A stretch of DNA of 64,000 nucleotides, from positions 3,084,001 through 3,148,000 of the forward strand of contig NZ_CP115484.1 in the NCBI RefSeq assembly GCF_027627475.1. Reading direction: 5' to 3'. The translations under genes were made by a program, and so were the position numbers. This document shows, piece by piece, positions 52,006-58,947 of this stretch (position 1 is its first letter; the number at the start of each line of letters is the position of its first letter). The DNA comes from Paenibacillus sp. SYP-B4298 (GTDB lineage: Bacteria; Bacillota; Bacilli; Paenibacillales; Paenibacillaceae). The notes under the pieces were generated by a model. It made no database searches. It worked only from the letters and a program-made list of their open reading frames with translations, and was not told where the DNA came from.

Positions 52006-53022
52006 TCATTGTCCTCCTTCTATTGAGACCGCGTGCGCAATGCACGGAATCGATTCTCCCTGCTGATAGGAAAGCGGGGAGAGCAGCGCGCCGGTGGCCA
52101 CGACCAGCATACGCTTCAGCTCCCCCTTGCGGATACGATCCAGCAGATGACCGTAAGTCACTACAGCAGAGCAGGCACAGCCGCTGCCTCCGGCCTGCAC
52201 AAGCTGCTTTTGCTTCTCCATATCATAGATCATTAATCCGCAGTCGCCGAACTGTGTCTCGCCGATCGGGACGCCGCTGCGCTCCAGCAGGTCCTTGGCA
52301 ATCTGATGCCCGATGGAGGCCAGATCGCCAGTCACGATCAGATCATAGTCCTTCGGCGTGCGGCCGGTATCCTCCAGATGCGCCTGAATCGTATCGACCG
52401 CTGCGGGCGCCATCGCCGCTCCCATATTGAATGGATCGGTAATGCCCAGATCGACAATCTTGCCAATCGTTGCACAGGAGATGACGGGCCCGGCCCCTGC
52501 TTCCGCCACGATCGCCGCGCCCCCTCCGGTTACGGTATACTGGGCCGTGGGCGGCTTCTGCGAGCCATATTCGGTCGGGTAGCGGAACTGCTTCTCCGCC
52601 GTGCAGTTATGACTGCATACACCTGCCAGCACATGCGTTGCCGATCTGGAATTGACGAGCAGCGCCGCCAGCGCCAGCGACTCCATCGAGGTCGAGCAAG
52701 CTCCGAAGACGCCCAGATAAGGCAACCCGAGATCCCTGGCGGCAAAGCTGCTGCTAATGATCTGATTCAGCAGGTCGCCTCCTACATAGAACTGCAGCTG
52801 CTCCTTGCGGATGCCGGCATTGCGAATCGCAAAATCTGCGGCCTGCTCCATGAGCAGCCGCTCTGCCTTCTCCCATGACTTCTGCTGCATATCCAGTTCA
52901 GGGTGCACCAGATCAAAGCAGGAGGCCAGCGGCCCGTCCCCTTCGTCCGGCCCGACAATGGCCGCTGAGCCGATGATGACCGGACGGTTCTCAAACCACC
53001 ATGTTTGCTTTCCGCGCAGCAT
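52006..53022 (-). CDS. spoVAD: stage V sporulation protein AD (SpoVAD)
   Basis: Cytosolic SpoVA component that binds dipicolinic acid; it has a thiolase/beta-ketoacyl-synthase fold. 338 residues from ATG 53022 ([20 protein letters not shown]). Recognisable blocks: [64 protein letters not shown] much longer frame to 53190 overlaps spoVAC and is rejected. Located between spoVAC and spoVAE in the normal order. Confidence 0.95.
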
Positions 53023-53023
53023 C

Positions 53024-53515
53024 TTATTGTCCCCCCGTCCCGAGGATAAGGTGAACGATACCGACAAAGAAGGCTGCCACGGTGCCAAATACGATAACCG
53101 AGCCCGCAAGCCGGAACATGTGTCCGCCGACGCCAAGCACCAGCCCTTCGCTGCGATGCTCCAGCGCAGCGGAGCACATGGAGTTGGCAAAGCCTGTCAC
53201 CGGTACAGCCGAGCCCGCCCCTGCCCATTGCGCCAGCTTGTCGTATACGCCTAGGCAAGTGAGGATAACCGCCAGCAAAATCATGACGGCGACCGTCGGA
53301 TTGCCTGCTTGTGTCTGTGACATTTTGAAGTAGTGCATAAACATGTTCTGAACACATTGGCCGATCAGGCAAATCCCGCCGCCTACGAGGAAGGCGCGCA
53401 GACAGTTTTTGCCGACGGAACGCGAAGGCTCGCGGTTTTTGGCAAATTGCTTGTATTCCTTGCTGGACATCGCAATTTTCTTGTATTTGCCGCTCCCGGC
53501 GCTTTTTGTAGTCAA
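53024..53515 (-). CDS. spoVAC: stage V sporulation protein AC (SpoVAC)
   Basis: Membrane component of the dipicolinate channel; in Bacillus it is mechanosensitive. 163 residues with about four hydrophobic segments (AFLVGGGICLIGQCVQNMF, MILLAVILTCLGVYDKLA, the SAVPVTGFANSMCSAALE block, SVIVFGTVAAFFVGIVHLIL). AAGGAGG is seven bases before TTG 53515 but almost touches ATG 53521, so TTG is preferred. First gene of this three-gene spoVA operon; spoVAA, spoVAB and spoVAF are not here. No convincing sigma-G promoter was identified. Confidence 0.93.
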   Translation of the reverse strand: MTTKSAGSGKYKKIAMSSKEYKQFAKNREPSRSVGKNCLRAFLVGGGICLIGQCVQNMFMHYFKMSQTQAGNPTVAVMILLAVILTCLGVYDKLAQWAGAGSAVPVTGFANSMCSAALEHRSEGLVLGVGGHMFRLAGSVIVFGTVAAFFVGIVHLILGTGGQ

Positions 53516-53618
53516 GCTCATCCCTCCTTTTGCTTTAAGACCATTATTTGTCGACTTCTAGCATGTTATGTATGCCAGGATATGTCATAGGGGCAGGTAT
53601 CAGGGCATCCTCCGAACG

Positions 53619-53656
53619 AAAAAAAAAGCGCATCGCTCATTGCTGAGCCATACGCT
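53619..53656 (-). terminator. intrinsic terminator of the LacI-type regulator
   Basis: AGCGCATCGCTCA (53627-53639) pairs with TGAGCCATACGCT (53644-53656) with two imperfect pairs; nine T follow on the minus strand. The stem touches the gene's stop codon. Confidence 0.8.
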
Positions 53657-54726
53657 TATGTTCTATTGCCTGTAGAGACCTGGCTGATCTGCGAGACCGA
53701 CTCGCGTACAACAAGCTCCGGCAGCACCTTCATGCTCTTGCTGCTCTTCGCTCCTGCGATCATGTCGCACAGCCTCTTCGCTGCCAGCCTCCCAACTTCG
53801 TTGCCCTTGAGCGAGATCGTTGTCAGCTCGGGGATACAATCCGATGCGTAGGGAATATCGTCAAAGCCTACGAGCGAAAGCTCCTCCGGGACGCGAATGC
53901 CCGCCTTGCTCGCCGCCTTCAGCATGCCGACAGCCACCAGATCATTGGCACATAGCACCGCCGTTGGTCGCTCGGGAAGAGCGAGCAGATGATGCAAGAA
54001 CTGCTTGCCGCTCTCGACATTGAATCCGCCATCCAGCATCCATTCCTTGCGTATTGCAATGTGATTGGCTCTCATCGTCCGGGCAAAGCCCTGTCTGCGC
54101 TGACGAGTGTTCGAAAGCTGGGTGTACCCGCCGGCAAATGCAATATGACGATGTCCCGCATCAATGAGGTATTGAGCTGCCAGCGACGCGCCTTCCTGCT
54201 CGTCCACATAGACGCGCTGTATTCCCGTGCCGGGCATACAGCCATTGACGAGCAGCAGCGGGACTCGCTTGCTGACCTCAACCGCCTCTCTGACCAGATG
54301 CTCGGCAGGCTTGGCCAGATTGACCCGCCCTCCAATCCAGATCATACCGTCAATCTGCTTTTCCAGGAGCAGGCTTACATAATCCGATTCCCGTTCATAC
54401 TGCTCCGATCCTGTGCCCAGTGTCGAGACCGTATCGCACAGGAACATTGTATAGCCTTGGCTGCGAGCCTCCTGCTCCAGTCCAGCAAGCAAGGCAGGAA
54501 AGAAGGGGTTCGTCATGTCTGGGATAATCACGCCAATCATGCCGGTCGATTTCTTGGACAGGCTGCGAGCCAGCGCATTGGGCTGGAACTGATGTTTCCG
54601 AATCAAGGCTACGACTTTGTCTCTGGTTTCCTTCTTAACCGGGGCTGTGTTGTTCAGCACACGCGACACGGTCGCTACCGATACATTCGCCTCGCGGGCA
54701 ATATCATAGATGGTGACCGCCTTCAT
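53656..54726 (-). CDS. LacI family transcriptional regulator
   Basis: 356 residues. N-terminal helix-turn-helix [23 protein letters not shown] and hinge [15 protein letters not shown], followed by a periplasmic-binding-protein-like effector domain ([60 protein letters not shown]). ATG 54726 is decided by AAGGAGTG eight bases upstream. No sugar transporter or catabolic gene is adjacent, so the target genes and effector cannot be named. It may be a monocistronic global regulator. Confidence 0.92.
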
Positions 54727-54765
54727 CGGGCACACTCCTTTTTGCTTGCGTGTTCGATAGGCTGC

Positions 54766-55260
54766 TTATCTAGCCTCCAGCGGCAGCAGCACAACAGCGG
54801 CCTGCTTGCCGCTCAGTTGCAGCCCGCTCTGCTTGGTTCCGTTGCCCGCAAGGTCGCGAACCAGACGCTCCAGCAATTCCTTCGCCTTGGCGCCCTCCTT
54901 GCCCTGGATGCGCACGACAAGCTGCACGCTAATGCCGCCCTCAAGCAGCTTGGCGGCCTGCCTCAGCTTGGTGTCATAATCATGGTCCTCGATATGCGGT
55001 GTAAGCCGCAGCTCCTTCACCTTGGCCGCTGCGCCCTCCTGACGCTTGGCAAGCGGCGCCTGCTGCTTCGCCTTGCCCCTGACCTCCAGCTTGCAGGGGG
55101 GAGGGCTGGACATCAGCGAGAGACAGACCAGATCAGCCTTGGCCTCTCGTGCCATCGCAAGAGCTGCCTCCCGTGTCACGATCCCCAAAGCCTCGCCCTG
55201 TAGTCCGGTCAGTTGAACCTCTGCGGCCTTGATCTTCTCATTCATAATTACGGCTGCCAT
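54766..55260 (-). CDS. divergent paralogue of translation initiation factor IF-3
   Basis: 164-residue protein with the two-domain IF-3 layout. N-domain: NEKIKAAEVQLTGLQGEALG and LVCLSLMSSPPPCKLEVRGK match the IF-3 blocks NEKI.A.EVRLI...GEQLG and ISP.A.PPVCKI. A basic linker is followed by the C-domain start VKELRLTPHIEDHDYDTKLRQA, matching VKEIRLSPTIDEHDF. The rest differs: a Gly/Lys-rich RIQGKEGAKAK replaces the usual FRGRE..H motif. It is not next to rpmI-rplT, so it is unlikely to be the cell's main infC. Start ATG 55260 after AAGGAAG. Function unknown; a ribosome-associated stress or sporulation factor is possible. Confidence 0.8.
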   Translation of the reverse strand: MAAVIMNEKIKAAEVQLTGLQGEALGIVTREAALAMAREAKADLVCLSLMSSPPPCKLEVRGKAKQQAPLAKRQEGAAAKVKELRLTPHIEDHDYDTKLRQAAKLLEGGISVQLVVRIQGKEGAKAKELLERLVRDLAGNGTKQSGLQLSGKQAAVVLLPLEAR

Positions 55261-55437
55261 ATGTACCACTTCCTTATGTAAAAATACGGTCAAATGATGA
55301 GAGTTAGCTGTACCCTATTGTACATTCGCGCTGCTCAAGCAGCAACTATAAGCGGGAATATGCAGTCACTGGGACGCAGCAGACCTCTCCGAAGCAATGC
55401 TTCGTCCCACTCTCCGCCCGCTAGCGGGCAAAGCAGC

Positions 55438-55472
55438 AAGAAACCGCCCGGGTCGATGAGCCGGACGGTTTC
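55438..55472. other. hairpin between the IF-3-like gene and the 27-residue peptide gene
   Basis: Stem AGAAACCG.CCGG pairing with CCGG.CGGTTTCT around a nine-base loop. No good T-run on either strand. It could end the short minus-strand genes upstream. The other bases of this gap hold nothing I recognise. Confidence 0.4.
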
Positions 55473-55529
55473 TAAAGACAAGGGGGTCTGACTGCTGTCA
55501 CAGCCATCAGAGTTGGCAGGGGGAATGGA

Positions 55530-55613
55530 CTAGAACTGCCACAAGCACAAGAGCGCGGCCAGCAGCACGTAGCCTATCAATATAAGGAGCAGTTGCCTTT
55601 GCTGTCTGGTCAC
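55530..55613 (-). CDS. very small membrane peptide (27 residues)
   Basis: GTG at 55613 with AGAGAGGTG upstream opens a 27-residue frame: a basic head (MTRQQRQ) and one hydrophobic helix (LLLILIGYVLLAALLCLWQF). A longer frame to 55844 exists but crosses an improbable Arg/Pro-rich stretch. Composition is typical of single-helix membrane microproteins. No family assignment; expression is unproven. Confidence 0.4.
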   Translation of the reverse strand: MTRQQRQLLLILIGYVLLAALLCLWQF

Positions 55614-55776
55614 AGCATACACCTCTCTCTTATAGACTTGCAGAGCATACCCCAGTGTATTCGGTGAACGGCCCGACTGTGCGCCCCCCATCCAAGCTGC
55701 AGATCGCCTTTTCGCCCCATACTGCGTTGAACAAGCATTCGGCCAGATCTGATCGTTCAGAGTGCTCAGACGCTCC

Positions 55777-55863
55777 CTAATGATTGTTCCCTTTGCCGTT
55801 GCTTTTCTTGTCAGAGGAGCGGGTGGTCGTATTTTTTGCTCCATGACCCTGCTGCTTCGCCAT
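55777..55863 (-). CDS. very small hydrophilic protein (28 residues), possibly spore-related
   Basis: ATG at 55863 follows AAGGAGG at nine bases, an excellent start. The protein begins MAKQQGHGAKNTTTRSSDKK and ends SNGKGNNH: rich in Lys, Asn, Gly, Ser, no hydrophobic core. Such composition resembles minor small acid-soluble spore proteins (SspN/SspP style), but there is no firm similarity. Function is a guess from composition only. Confidence 0.5.
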   Translation of the reverse strand: MAKQQGHGAKNTTTRSSDKKSNGKGNNH

Positions 55864-56188
55864 TAGACATCGCCTCCTTCACTCGTTAGCGTATGCCATG
55901 GCCGTGCGCTTTATAGCTGTCGCGTTCACCCCACTTTCTTCCTTCCAGGTTGCACATTCAAGCTGGCGAACAGCTCCTATAACCTTCTTCTCCACATATG
56001 GTCGCGCGCCAAGCGCAACCTGCCAGCAGCCGCAACCGCGTCGGCCTCTGCAGGGTGTGTCAGGTAATAACGCAGCTTGACCAGCAGTCCTCTTCATCGT
56101 CTACCAGACCCCAAGGAGGTCACCCTGTTCACTGGACAGATTGCTTTCGTGCATCCTGATGGTCTAGCGAGGCCCCTTTGCCGCCTCG
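55864..56188. other. gap upstream of the 28-residue gene
   Basis: Holds a hairpin AGCGAGGC (56166-56173) with GCCTCGCT (56183-56190) right at the stop of the glycosyltransferase gene, probably its transcript end, though without a T-run. Frames of 60-70 codons on both strands have no binding site or similarity. No clear promoter identified. Confidence 0.4.
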
Positions 56189-57610
56189 CTAACGCTTGTC
56201 AATCTCGGAGAAGCTCGCGAGCGCCCACAGCTTCCAAGCAGCATAGGCGGAGGCATGACGCTTGGTTATGCTGTTCCCCCGCATGCGCAGATGATATAAC
56301 GCCGCGGGAATATACTCCGAATCATATTGCCGAAGCAGCCGAATGAGCATCTCCATATCCTCATAGAGCCGGCCGTAGAACGGGTCCGCCTGCCGCCAGC
56401 CCCCCTGCTCCCGCAGCGCGGACAGCCGGTATAGACGAGGCAACAGCGGCCGAGCCCGCTCCAGCAGTCGGCGGCTGTCAGCAACCGGAGCAGCCTGGTG
56501 CACCCCCCGGATGATCAACTGGTGCTTGCTGCGCTCCTGCCATTCCCAATAGTCGCTATGGAGCAGGGCGACGCCATCACTGGCTGCGGCGGCTGCGGCG
56601 GTCAACTGTTCAATGGCATCACAAGACAGCCAATCATCGGCGTCCAGCTCCAGTAGCCAACTGCCGCGCGCTACTGCAAGAGCTGTATTCAGAGCGGCAG
56701 CCTTGCCACGATTGCGATCATGGCGGAGTACATAGATTGGTGCAGCAGGAAACAGGCTGGCCACTAGCTCGCCAACATCCGAGGGAGAGGCATCATCCAC
56801 AATAATCAGCTCCCAGTTGTTGCTCGTCTGCTTCAATACACTGCGCACCGCCCACGGCAGATATTCCTCATCTTTATATACACAGATTACAATTGTTATC
56901 AGTGCTGTTGTACCCGATATGATGCTGTCGTCTGCCGCCGAGGCTCCAACTGCTCCAGCAGGTGCGGTCACTGACAAGGAAGTGCCATCCCCGTCAGCAG
57001 CAGGCGTAGCTAGCTGGACAGTGCCGCCAACAGCCCTGCCTGTCACGTAGGATGCAGGCGCTTCCAACAGCGGGCGTACCGCAGCCCATTCTTCCTCGCG
57101 ACGTTGCCAGGCTGGCGGACGTTGAATCGGAGGACGATAGCTGGAGGTGACCAGCTCCGATCCGTCGCTGCGTGAGGCAAGCTGACAGTATTTATCGTAA
57201 GCGACATAGTCCTGGAACGGCAGCAGCCGCTCATCAGCAAATCCATGACATTCGCCGCTAACCAGAAGTCTCCTGTTCCATAGTACAATTTCCTGAGGGT
57301 ACAGCGGCGTGCGCTGCTGTGCCGGGGAACGAAGCGCCGAATGGATACATAGCCAGCCCAGGCCCTCCTCCTCCATCCTTCTTCTCCAGCCTGCCGCCTC
57401 CTCTCCAAACACATGGAGCAGCACCGCTCCGGCCGGGATGACCATGACAAGCGCTGCCTCAGGGTGCTCCCCCAGCCACCTATTCATCAAGCGGCCCGCA
57501 GGCTGCTCGACCGGGATGATCACAGCTTGCGGCAGCAACACTCCGGCCGCCCTTACAGTCATGCGGGCGGCTGGAGTGCGGGTATAATTCAGCACAAAAA
57601 CAAGCATCAT
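56189..57610 (-). CDS. two-part glycosyltransferase family 2 protein
   Basis: 473 residues. The C-terminal half (from about residue 235) is a GT-A family 2 glycosyltransferase: TIVICVYKDEEYLPWAVRSV, ELIIVDDASPSDV, RGKAAALNTALAVARGSWLL, and the metal motif LELDADDWLS. The N-terminal 160 residues (MMLVFVLNYTRTPAARM..., ending in a region with HGFADERLLPFQDYVAYDKY) do not match a family I know and are joined by an Ala/Gly/Thr-rich linker. No membrane helix. ATG 57610 set by GAGAGGGGAAGA. Acceptor and sugar unknown; no cell-wall cluster nearby. Confidence 0.85.
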   Translation of the reverse strand: MMLVFVLNYTRTPAARMTVRAAGVLLPQAVIIPVEQPAGRLMNRWLGEHPEAALVMVIPAGAVLLHVFGEEAAGWRRRMEEEGLGWLCIHSALRSPAQQRTPLYPQEIVLWNRRLLVSGECHGFADERLLPFQDYVAYDKYCQLASRSDGSELVTSSYRPPIQRPPAWQRREEEWAAVRPLLEAPASYVTGRAVGGTVQLATPAADGDGTSLSVTAPAGAVGASAADDSIISGTTALITIVICVYKDEEYLPWAVRSVLKQTSNNWELIIVDDASPSDVGELVASLFPAAPIYVLRHDRNRGKAAALNTALAVARGSWLLELDADDWLSCDAIEQLTAAAAAASDGVALLHSDYWEWQERSKHQLIIRGVHQAAPVADSRRLLERARPLLPRLYRLSALREQGGWRQADPFYGRLYEDMEMLIRLLRQYDSEYIPAALYHLRMRGNSITKRHASAYAAWKLWALASFSEIDKR

Positions 57611-57711
57611 TCTTCCCCTCTCCCGAATGAACGGTTCCATCCTTTAATTGTTATGCAGCATACAACGCTGACATACATTGCATTAGATCATCCGCAAAGG
57701 GGAGGGCAATC

Positions 57712-57822
57712 ATGGCTGTAATCGTGCTTTTTGCTAATAATGGATTGGGGGGGAATGAAGCAGAGGCCGCAACAGTTATGCAGCAGCTTGCGCGTCAGGG
57801 CACCGTCCTACTATTGCAATAA
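57712..57822 (+). CDS. possible small protein (36 residues)
   Basis: ATG at 57712 with GGGGAGGG six bases upstream opens MAVIVLFANNGLGGNEAEAA and ends TVLLLQ. Divergent from the glycosyltransferase gene. A longer overlapping frame in another register has no binding site. It may be the start of a frameshifted gene, since the next 130 bases keep an open frame in a different register. Low certainty. Confidence 0.35.
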   Translation: MAVIVLFANNGLGGNEAEAATVMQQLARQGTVLLLQ

Positions 57823-57987
57823 GACGCAAGCCCTAGACTTGGCTGACTACTCCTATCGATTGCTGCCGCTCGACCGACTCCATCATCCATATGGTGCTGC
57901 ATCCTCTGAGAGAGTCGGGAGATTGCAGCGCACGAATACGCTATGCGATGAAGCATAGGGCCGCGGGGGTACAGGAGTTGATACAGG

Positions 57988-58947
57988 CTATTCCTGACCT
58001 GTCAGCCGAGTAACGCCAGGCTGCTTCGCTTCATTCACATACAACTGGAACACATCAGGACGGCTGTAATGACCGACGGCATCGAAATCATAGCGGCTCT
58101 GCACAACCTTGGCCATATCCAGGTCTGCAAGCAGCATTCCTTCCTCATCATATAACGGCGGCGCCGCATAGTTGCCCAGCGGATCGACGATGGCACTGCC
58201 GCCGTTGCAGAGTGTCGCCTCGTCTGCAGCTATATCGTCATAGCAAGCCAGATCCTGAGGATACATGTCCTTGGTCACATACTGGTTGCTGGACAATACG
58301 TAGCAGCGGCCTTCACAGGCAATGTGGCGGATGGTCGATTGCCACGTCTCCCTGGCATCCGCAGTAGGCGTAAGCAATATATCGATGCCCTTGGCATACA
58401 TCGCCGTTCGGGCGAGCGGCATGTAATTCTCCCAACAGATCAAGCCGCCGATCCGTCCAAACGGCGTGTCGATGACCGTCAGTGTGCTGCCATCCCCTTG
58501 CCCCCACAGCAGCCGTTCTGATCCGGTTGGCACCAGCTTGCGATGCTTGCCGAGCAGACTGCCATCCGGGCCAAAATACAAAATGGTGTTGTACAGCGTA
58601 GCCCGGCTATATTCTGTATCTCGCTCTACAACGCCGACTGCCAGATGCAAGCGATGCTGCCTGGCAAGCGCCCCGATCTGCCTGCATTCGGCACCTGGAA
58701 CATTAATCGCGCTCTCCCAATAGCGTGCCCAATCCAGCCTTCCCTCCGCACTGCGGCTCCCGACGCGCGCACCCATGGACAGCCCCCGTGGATAACCGGG
58801 AACGAACACCTCAGGAAACACGACCAGCCCCGCTCCCTGCTCAGCCGCTCTAGCCGCCCATATGGACAGCTTGTCGAGCGCAGAGCTCTTGTCAAACAGC
58901 ATGGGCGCAGATTGAATCACTGCTGCACGAACCTTCTGACCGCTCAT
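57988..58947 (-). CDS. nitrilase (carbon-nitrogen hydrolase family)
   Basis: 319 residues with the complete catalytic triad: Glu in LVVFPEVFVPGYPRG, Lys in GKHRKLVPTGSER, Cys in GRIGGLICWENYMPLART. The CWENY form and the HRKLxPT block place it with true nitrilases (nitrile to carboxylic acid and ammonia) rather than amidases. Substrate preference cannot be told. GGAGTGGAGG precedes the ATG. Neighbouring small membrane gene reads in the same direction, 25 bases upstream. Confidence 0.92.
   Translation of the reverse strand: MSGQKVRAAVIQSAPMLFDKSSALDKLSIWAARAAEQGAGLVVFPEVFVPGYPRGLSMGARVGSRSAEGRLDWARYWESAINVPGAECRQIGALARQHRLHLAVGVVERDTEYSRATLYNTILYFGPDGSLLGKHRKLVPTGSERLLWGQGDGSTLTVIDTPFGRIGGLICWENYMPLARTAMYAKGIDILLTPTADARETWQSTIRHIACEGRCYVLSSNQYVTKDMYPQDLACYDDIAADEATLCNGGSAIVDPLGNYAAPPLYDEEGMLLADLDMAKVVQSRYDFDAVGHYSRPDVFQLYVNEAKQPGVTRLTGQE

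Follow-up and report, generated by a model that had tools for sequence, protein, structure and literature searches.

A second, strongly altered copy of IF3 in Paenibacillus-type bacteria appears to keep its ribosomal grip with changed start-checking parts

A two-domain IF3 paralogue in the window

The window analyzed here is the whole 64,000-nt stretch of Paenibacillus sp. SYP-B4298 DNA (contig NZ_CP115484.1, positions 3,084,001 to 3,148,000). Its minus strand carries a gene related to that of translation initiation factor 3 (IF3), followed on the same strand by a gene for a LacI-family regulator and by three spoVA genes. The features of the locus are as follows.

54766..55260, minus strand: gene of the IF3-like paralogue, with 164 codons and a stop (open reading frame, Pfam IF3_N/IF3_C, NCBIfam TIGR00168)
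55057..55245, minus strand: IF3 N-terminal domain, residues 6-68 (Pfam PF05198)
55024..55056, minus strand: shortened linker, residues 69-79 (alignments; length and sequence vary across the paralogue family)
54781..55023, minus strand: IF3 C-terminal domain, residues 80-160 (Pfam PF00707), with K98 (E. coli K110), Y95, R100 and K104 kept
54892..54909, minus strand: IQGKEG (residues 118-123), where canonical proteins have FRGRE-IAH; Q119 stands for E. coli R131, and H137 is deleted
54802..54825, minus strand: GLQLSGKQ (residues 146-153), a signature of the paralogues that replaces the canonical segment containing E. coli R168
55266..55275, minus strand: Shine-Dalgarno-like AAGGAAGTGG, 5 nt upstream of the ATG (direct reading)
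53656-54735, minus strand: LacI-family regulator gene, starting 30 nt downstream of the IF3-like stop codon
51654-53521, minus strand: spoVAC, spoVAD and spoVAE, downstream of the LacI-family gene

The Pfam search with the IF3-like protein, which starts with the ATG at 55260, revealed IF3_N (59.4 bits) and IF3_C (54.3 bits) in that order, both above the curated cut-offs of 26.9 and 34.8 bits, respectively. The NCBIfam infC equivalog model TIGR00168 scored 100 bits for this protein and 241 for the canonical copy of the same genome, with a cut-off of 60. The gene encodes a two-domain IF3 protein. An earlier reading of the sequence alone had described a retained IF3 N-domain and first half of the C-domain motif, a lost FRGRE..H block and a shortened, Ala/Lys-rich linker; all three descriptions agree with the alignments of the window copy, in which VKELRLTPHIEDHDYDTKL is present and FRGREIAH reads IQGKE---G.

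Upstream of the gene lie two small ORFs without family matches in Pfam or NCBIfam. Rfam gave no match at E ≤ 1 within 53000-58000 around the gene, and the terminator scan upstream of the gene in the window found none. A TATAAT-like box was observed upstream of IF3-like matches in a group of loci from other genomes (L034-L048), and the promoter scan of the window returned two sites, neither of them at such a box. In those loci of this group that have an upstream MATE-type gene, a hairpin followed by T residues lies between that gene and the IF3-like start codon; it may be the terminator of the MATE-type gene, or an attenuator.

The canonical infC operon and other initiation factors in the same genome

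infC, the gene for IF3, is regarded as essential and is normally present in a single copy. The IF3_C profile search of the host genome, a single 6.26-Mb contig, revealed two places, with scores of 123.8 bits at 846860-847117 for the canonical gene and 55.6 bits for the IF3-like gene. The canonical infC (G000:C1:846632-847114) lies 2.3 Mb from the IF3-like gene, is preceded by an L20 leader (Rfam, 60.6 bits) and is followed by rpmI and then rplT, which were recognized by eye in the ORF list. The IF3-like gene has no L20 leader, rpmI or rplT; its position away from the usual infC-rpmI-rplT operon, as the sequence-only reading had proposed, was borne out, and a second, normal infC, whose absence would have refuted the paralogue reading, is present.

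IF1 and IF2 gave one match each in the host genome. A search pattern for initiator tRNAs found three places, all with the ordinary GGG-CTCATAA-CCC, presumably the initiator tRNA genes. Thus only IF3 is doubled among the factors searched, and a paired duplication of the initiation machinery was rejected on these counts.

Distribution among genomes

Canonical IF3 was present in all 58 relatives compared (31–37% identity to the IF3-like query of the window), and the IF3-like gene in 39 of them; the other 19 carried canonical IF3 only. Presence in every genome, as for an infC orthologue, was therefore not observed for the paralogue. In 37 of the 39 carriers, the window genome counted, there was one match with 52–100% identity, and in the remaining two (G010 and G028) the match fell into two pieces around a longer linker.

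For wider searches, a paralogue profile was built from 29 IF3-like sequences. Among 299 genomes sampled from the class, profile scores were bimodal: 49 genomes reached 205–252 bits and the next match 138, the two truncated or broken copies of G313 and G163 falling into the lower group. The 49 high-scoring genomes were confined to four families (f1, f20, f31 and f36). The paralogue profile was passed at 1e-42 by 213 of 247 genomes of the window's own order, a count that misses split copies such as those of G010 and G028; the profile was also passed by 26 of the 39 genomes from the order that includes f31 and by 9 of 15 from that of f20 and f36.

At the level of the phylum, 5 of 299 sampled genomes passed 1e-38, all from the window's own family. 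When 199 phylum genomes were searched with IF3_C, two matches occurred only in those five genomes and in G537. Those of the sampled phylum genomes (299 for the paralogue profile, 199 for IF3_C) that lie outside the class thus yielded no IF3-like gene. G537, from another class of the phylum, contains two infC copies (L151 and C75:317133-317390), both with canonical scores. In the named scan, the best 80 of 441 places were labelled Paenibacillus or Cohnella, except for two Bacillus sp.

Two damaged copies were also observed. In G313 (L140:5072-7720), a deletion has joined the front of the IF3-like gene to a downstream ORF, named by eye as SLH-type (S-layer-like), in one 882-residue frame; in G163 (L139:4855-5551), the gene is broken inside the C-domain, with the remainder in another frame. 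Since several lineages lack the paralogue or have it broken, it is dispensable.

Phylogeny and selection

In the careful tree of 106 rows, in which the bootstrap had not fully settled, the 35 paralogues formed one clade with 100 bootstrap and 100 SH-aLRT, and did not fall among the canonical sequences of their relatives, the placement that would have spoken against the sequence-only reading. Neither monophyly of the canonical Bacilli copies (p-AU 0.48) nor a join of the paralogues to the canonical copies of their own order (p-AU 0.43) was rejected, and the paralogue may descend from a Paenibacillus-type infC, a descent compatible with the tree (AU p 0.43). The IF3-like stem measured 2.17 changes per column in a quick tree of 110 rows. 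Three viral rows adjoin the paralogue clade in that tree (SH-aLRT 85), outside the 100-supported clade and with a long-branch warning. A phage or plasmid origin appears unlikely from the weak matches to such sequences, although the viral rows beside the clade may speak for it unless their position reflects long branches.

Distances among paralogues and among canonical copies, taken over the same 21 genomes, were correlated (r 0.51, a value that none of 5000 permutations reached), which fits mostly vertical descent. The best explanation is that the IF3-like gene represents an old, mostly vertically inherited second IF3 branch, which occurs beside infC in three Bacillota orders that belong to a single class.

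Comparison of substitution rates (NG86) gave dN/dS of 0.04–0.15 in 10 paralogue pairs and 0.02–0.04 in three canonical pairs; the paralogue is under purifying selection. In three genome pairs, dS of the paralogue was 0.81, 0.72 and 1.61, compared with 0.13, 0.22 and 0.84 for canonical infC, values above 1 being rough. This excess of about 2 to 6 times points to weaker codon selection and so to lower expression; judged from these substitution patterns, the paralogue is probably expressed weakly or conditionally.

Residues kept, lost and gained

The residue pattern was derived from an alignment of 117 distinct paralogues and 68 distinct canonical proteins; 70 of the paralogues came from the named scan, in which near relatives are favoured, and nine from other orders were counted apart. 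Numbering below follows E. coli. The canonical copy of the window's genome lags 8 behind it as far as about position 153; its numbering is also that used for Thermus in PMC5037330.

Of the 71 columns in which at least 85% of canonical proteins agree, 28 have the same residue in at least 85% of the paralogues as well, and in 33 the canonical residue occurred in fewer than 20% of them; of these 33, the first-residue column is an artefact of sequence cutting and two lie in the variable linker. The kept positions include Y107, K110, R112 and R116, the C-domain residues that bind the 30S subunit. All 117 paralogues have K110, 110 have Y107, 116 have K or R at R116 and 88 have R or K at R112, so that the 30S-binding core of the IF3 family is present in the paralogues. 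The R133 position holds K in 114 of 117 and R in one.

The residues tied to codon contact and fidelity, Tyr75, Arg131 and Arg168, as an infC orthologue would have them, were retained in 0, 1 and 0 of the 117 paralogues, respectively. Tyr75 is replaced by Gln in 80 (canonical Y/F in 68 of 68), Arg131 by Gln in 80 and Lys in 11 (canonical R in 66 of 68), and Arg168 by Lys in every paralogue (canonical R in 62 and K in 5 of 68). The I-A-H triplet after FRGRE, including His137, is deleted in 117 of 117, and Phe117, Phe130 and Lys123 are likewise lost in all, Lys125 in 115. Loss of Arg99 is weak evidence, because the canonical proteins themselves have R in just 35 of 68.

The paralogues have also gained residues of their own: Cys46 in 117 of 117, a conserved N-domain signature DLVCTSLMSSPPPCKL, and the motif G-I-Q-x-S-G-K-Q near the C-terminus, with G151 and K152 in 100%, Q148 in 97%, S150 in 96% and Q153 in 94% of the 117 sequences. 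In mycoplasmas, IF3 may vary at Arg131 alongside unusual initiator tRNAs, a possible parallel for which the open-access literature search gave no paper and on which nothing here depends. All nine paralogues of other orders have a basic residue at the Gly132 position (K in 5, R in 4), which could substitute for Arg131.

Genomic context and the question of sporulation

The sequence-only reading had placed the paralogue next to the spoVA operon and had proposed sporulation, stress or dormancy as possible roles. spoVAC, spoVAD and spoVAE do lie nearby on the same strand, but the LacI-family gene, which is possibly co-transcribed with the IF3-like gene, stands between them. To assess the context, we compared the window with 100 loci of other genomes, and clustered genes from a simple ORF caller. 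This caller dropped the LacI, spoVAC and IF3-like genes of the window in favour of overlapping ORFs, reported no IF3-like gene in 13 loci and chose another ORF in a few (e.g., L045, L055, L070 and L133); its neighbour counts are accordingly rough, and the neighbours of the window were taken by tblastn.

tblastn with the window genes recovered the IF3-like gene in 100 of 100 loci. spoVAC, spoVAD and spoVAE were found near it, downstream and on the same strand, in two (L033 and L038), which belong to the two nearest relatives, Paenibacillus roseus and P. pinihumi. The LacI-family gene, the two small ORFs, the glycosyltransferase and the nitrilase of the window had no counterpart in the 100 other loci. 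The host genome has a second spoVAC at C1:1956591-1957010, and spoVAC was present in all 42 genomes examined, including all 19 relatives with canonical IF3 only. Since spoVA genes neighbour the paralogue in so few loci and spoVAC is kept without it, the proposed sporulation role is not indicated by these data, although an accessory role in sporulation may exist.

As for the other neighbours, named by eye in the rough counts, 27 of the 101 loci had a MATE-type exporter near the paralogue, 19 of them directly upstream of it; an ABC transporter occurred in 42 and a PAS-type protein in 43, the latter two being common families. A function derived from context was rejected; neighbours recur in part of the 101 loci, and none is general. 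In three related Paenibacillus loci (L076, L077 and L108), a TetM-like GTPase was recognized by eye near the IF3-like gene, with 648 residues in L077 and L108.

Proposed role and alternatives

Published work on IF3 allows the residue pattern to be read in terms of contacts. According to PMC12297416, E. coli IF3 K110L is deficient in its interaction with 30S. In the cryo-EM study PMC5037330, Tyr75 touches the platform, and Tyr75 mutants lose fidelity and retain 30S affinity. At the second base of the codon, the backbone is contacted by Arg123 (E. coli R131), and Arg159 (R168) lies near the codon and the anticodon stem-loop. The same study describes a C-domain whose first position leaves the large subunit's H69 site blocked and an N-domain that stays in contact with the elbow of the initiator tRNA. 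For Streptomyces IF3, PMC5472188 reports that mutations of A34, G63 and P167 raise translation from a GTC start and shows that a stress regulon can be switched by a change in IF3 fidelity, so that regulation via IF3 has a precedent. The equivalents in the window copy, A33, G62 and P160, are seemingly kept when matched by number and letter, so its fidelity need not be lost.

The sequence-only suggestion of a specialised initiation or ribosome factor stands as the best reading. The gene is a true paralogue: a second, normal infC exists, and the paralogues form their own clade. With moderate confidence, we read the IF3-like protein from its residues as an accessory IF3 that would bind 30S, prevent subunit association and inspect the start codon and initiator tRNA in an altered way. 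It would sit on the small subunit at the IF3 site, with its C-domain at the top of h44 beside the P site; when made, it would compete with or substitute for canonical IF3; and it would hold the subunits apart yet check start codon and initiator tRNA differently. The altered check is suggested because Arg131 and Tyr75 have been lost from a protein that retains its 30S-binding residues. From these patterns we infer 30S binding, anti-association, altered start selection and low or conditional expression alike. Several points count against this explanation: the three Streptomyces fidelity positions that are seemingly kept, Lys at the Arg168 position in 5 of the 68 canonical proteins, the basic residues at the Gly132 position in the paralogues of other orders, and the dispensability of the gene. 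A more specific version, in which the second IF3 would be swapped onto 30S under particular conditions and would change the accepted start sites or initiator tRNAs, is speculative and we consider it unlikely; such a factor might be a translational counterpart of an alternative sigma factor across three orders, an analogy that we hold equally loosely.

A possible but doubtful alternative is that the protein has no part in start selection and serves as a 30S-binding dormancy, recycling or ribosome-biogenesis factor that would retain grip and anti-association, for example to keep 30S subunits separate during stationary phase or outgrowth. The kept 30S core with replaced codon contacts, the synonymous divergence that points to weaker expression, and the separation from the L20 leader and a ribosomal-protein operon are all consistent with it, whereas the N-domain, which provides the tRNA-elbow contact in PMC5037330 and is conserved with its own signature, is not obviously needed for pure anti-association. 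It is improbable that the paralogue is a redundant spare with the same job as canonical infC: the two share domains and a similar basic character (mean pI 9.34 for paralogues, 9.55 for canonical proteins), but canonical IF3 persists in all 58 relatives, including the 39 carriers, 33 of the 71 strongly conserved canonical columns are replaced across the family (the cutting artefact counted), new residues are fixed, and a distinct signature across three orders would be unexpected for a spare. We give similarly little weight to the idea that the paralogue shields the P/E-site region of 30S from initiation antibiotics, as other ribosomal protection proteins would by analogy. The antibiotics edeine, kasugamycin and GE81112 bind the 30S E-site and hinder formation of the 30S initiation complex (PMC11903750), and MATE-type exporters and TetM-like GTPases occur in the loci mentioned above, but most loci have no such neighbours, and the loci with them come largely from close relatives. 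Least probable of all is a sporulation or germination factor, for which the position upstream of the spoVA operon in the window, L033 and L038 and the spoVAC found in every genome examined would speak, and against which stand the 98 of 100 other loci without a nearby spoVA gene and the 19 canonical-only relatives that have spoVAC.

Taken at the level of residues, many Paenibacillus-type bacteria appear to have a second, strongly altered and well preserved copy of IF3, with the grip kept and the start-checking parts changed. A conserved second IF3 of this kind would be a natural experiment that sets subunit separation against start selection; if it does alter start choice, start-site annotation and translation regulation would need revision in many soil and industrial bacteria. 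A search of the open-access literature, mostly of titles and abstracts, found no paper naming a second IF3 in these bacteria, and what PMC5670726 says on infC concerns the canonical operon.

Comparison with known IF3 systems

Extra IF3 copies are also found in phages and plasmids (PHROG 9787 and others; 25 phage and 73 plasmid records), and the three viral rows that adjoin the paralogue clade in the quick tree, possibly through a long-branch effect, belong to this resemblance. All phage and plasmid homologues are less than 60% identical to the IF3-like protein, with 37.3% and 35.8% as the best among the matches listed, and three of the four plasmid copies examined adjoin rpmI, as does ordinary infC. 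Mitochondrial IF3 is likewise a divergent IF3, and matched the paralogue profile in the structure database at 48 bits; however, it is an organelle protein, and the best canonical bacterial IF3 reached 121 bits in the same search.

The closest comparison is with canonical IF3 itself (infC; PF05198 and PF00707; TIGR00168), with which the paralogue shares domain order, basic character, the core Y107/K110/R112/R116 (E. coli) that binds 30S, and a PP and a Cys that are conserved in the N-domain. It differs in being just 31–37% identical to the canonical copies of the 58 genomes, in the three-residue deletion after FRGRE, its own C-terminal signature and the 33 of 71 replaced columns, and in standing without L20 leader and rpmI-rplT in a clade of its own.
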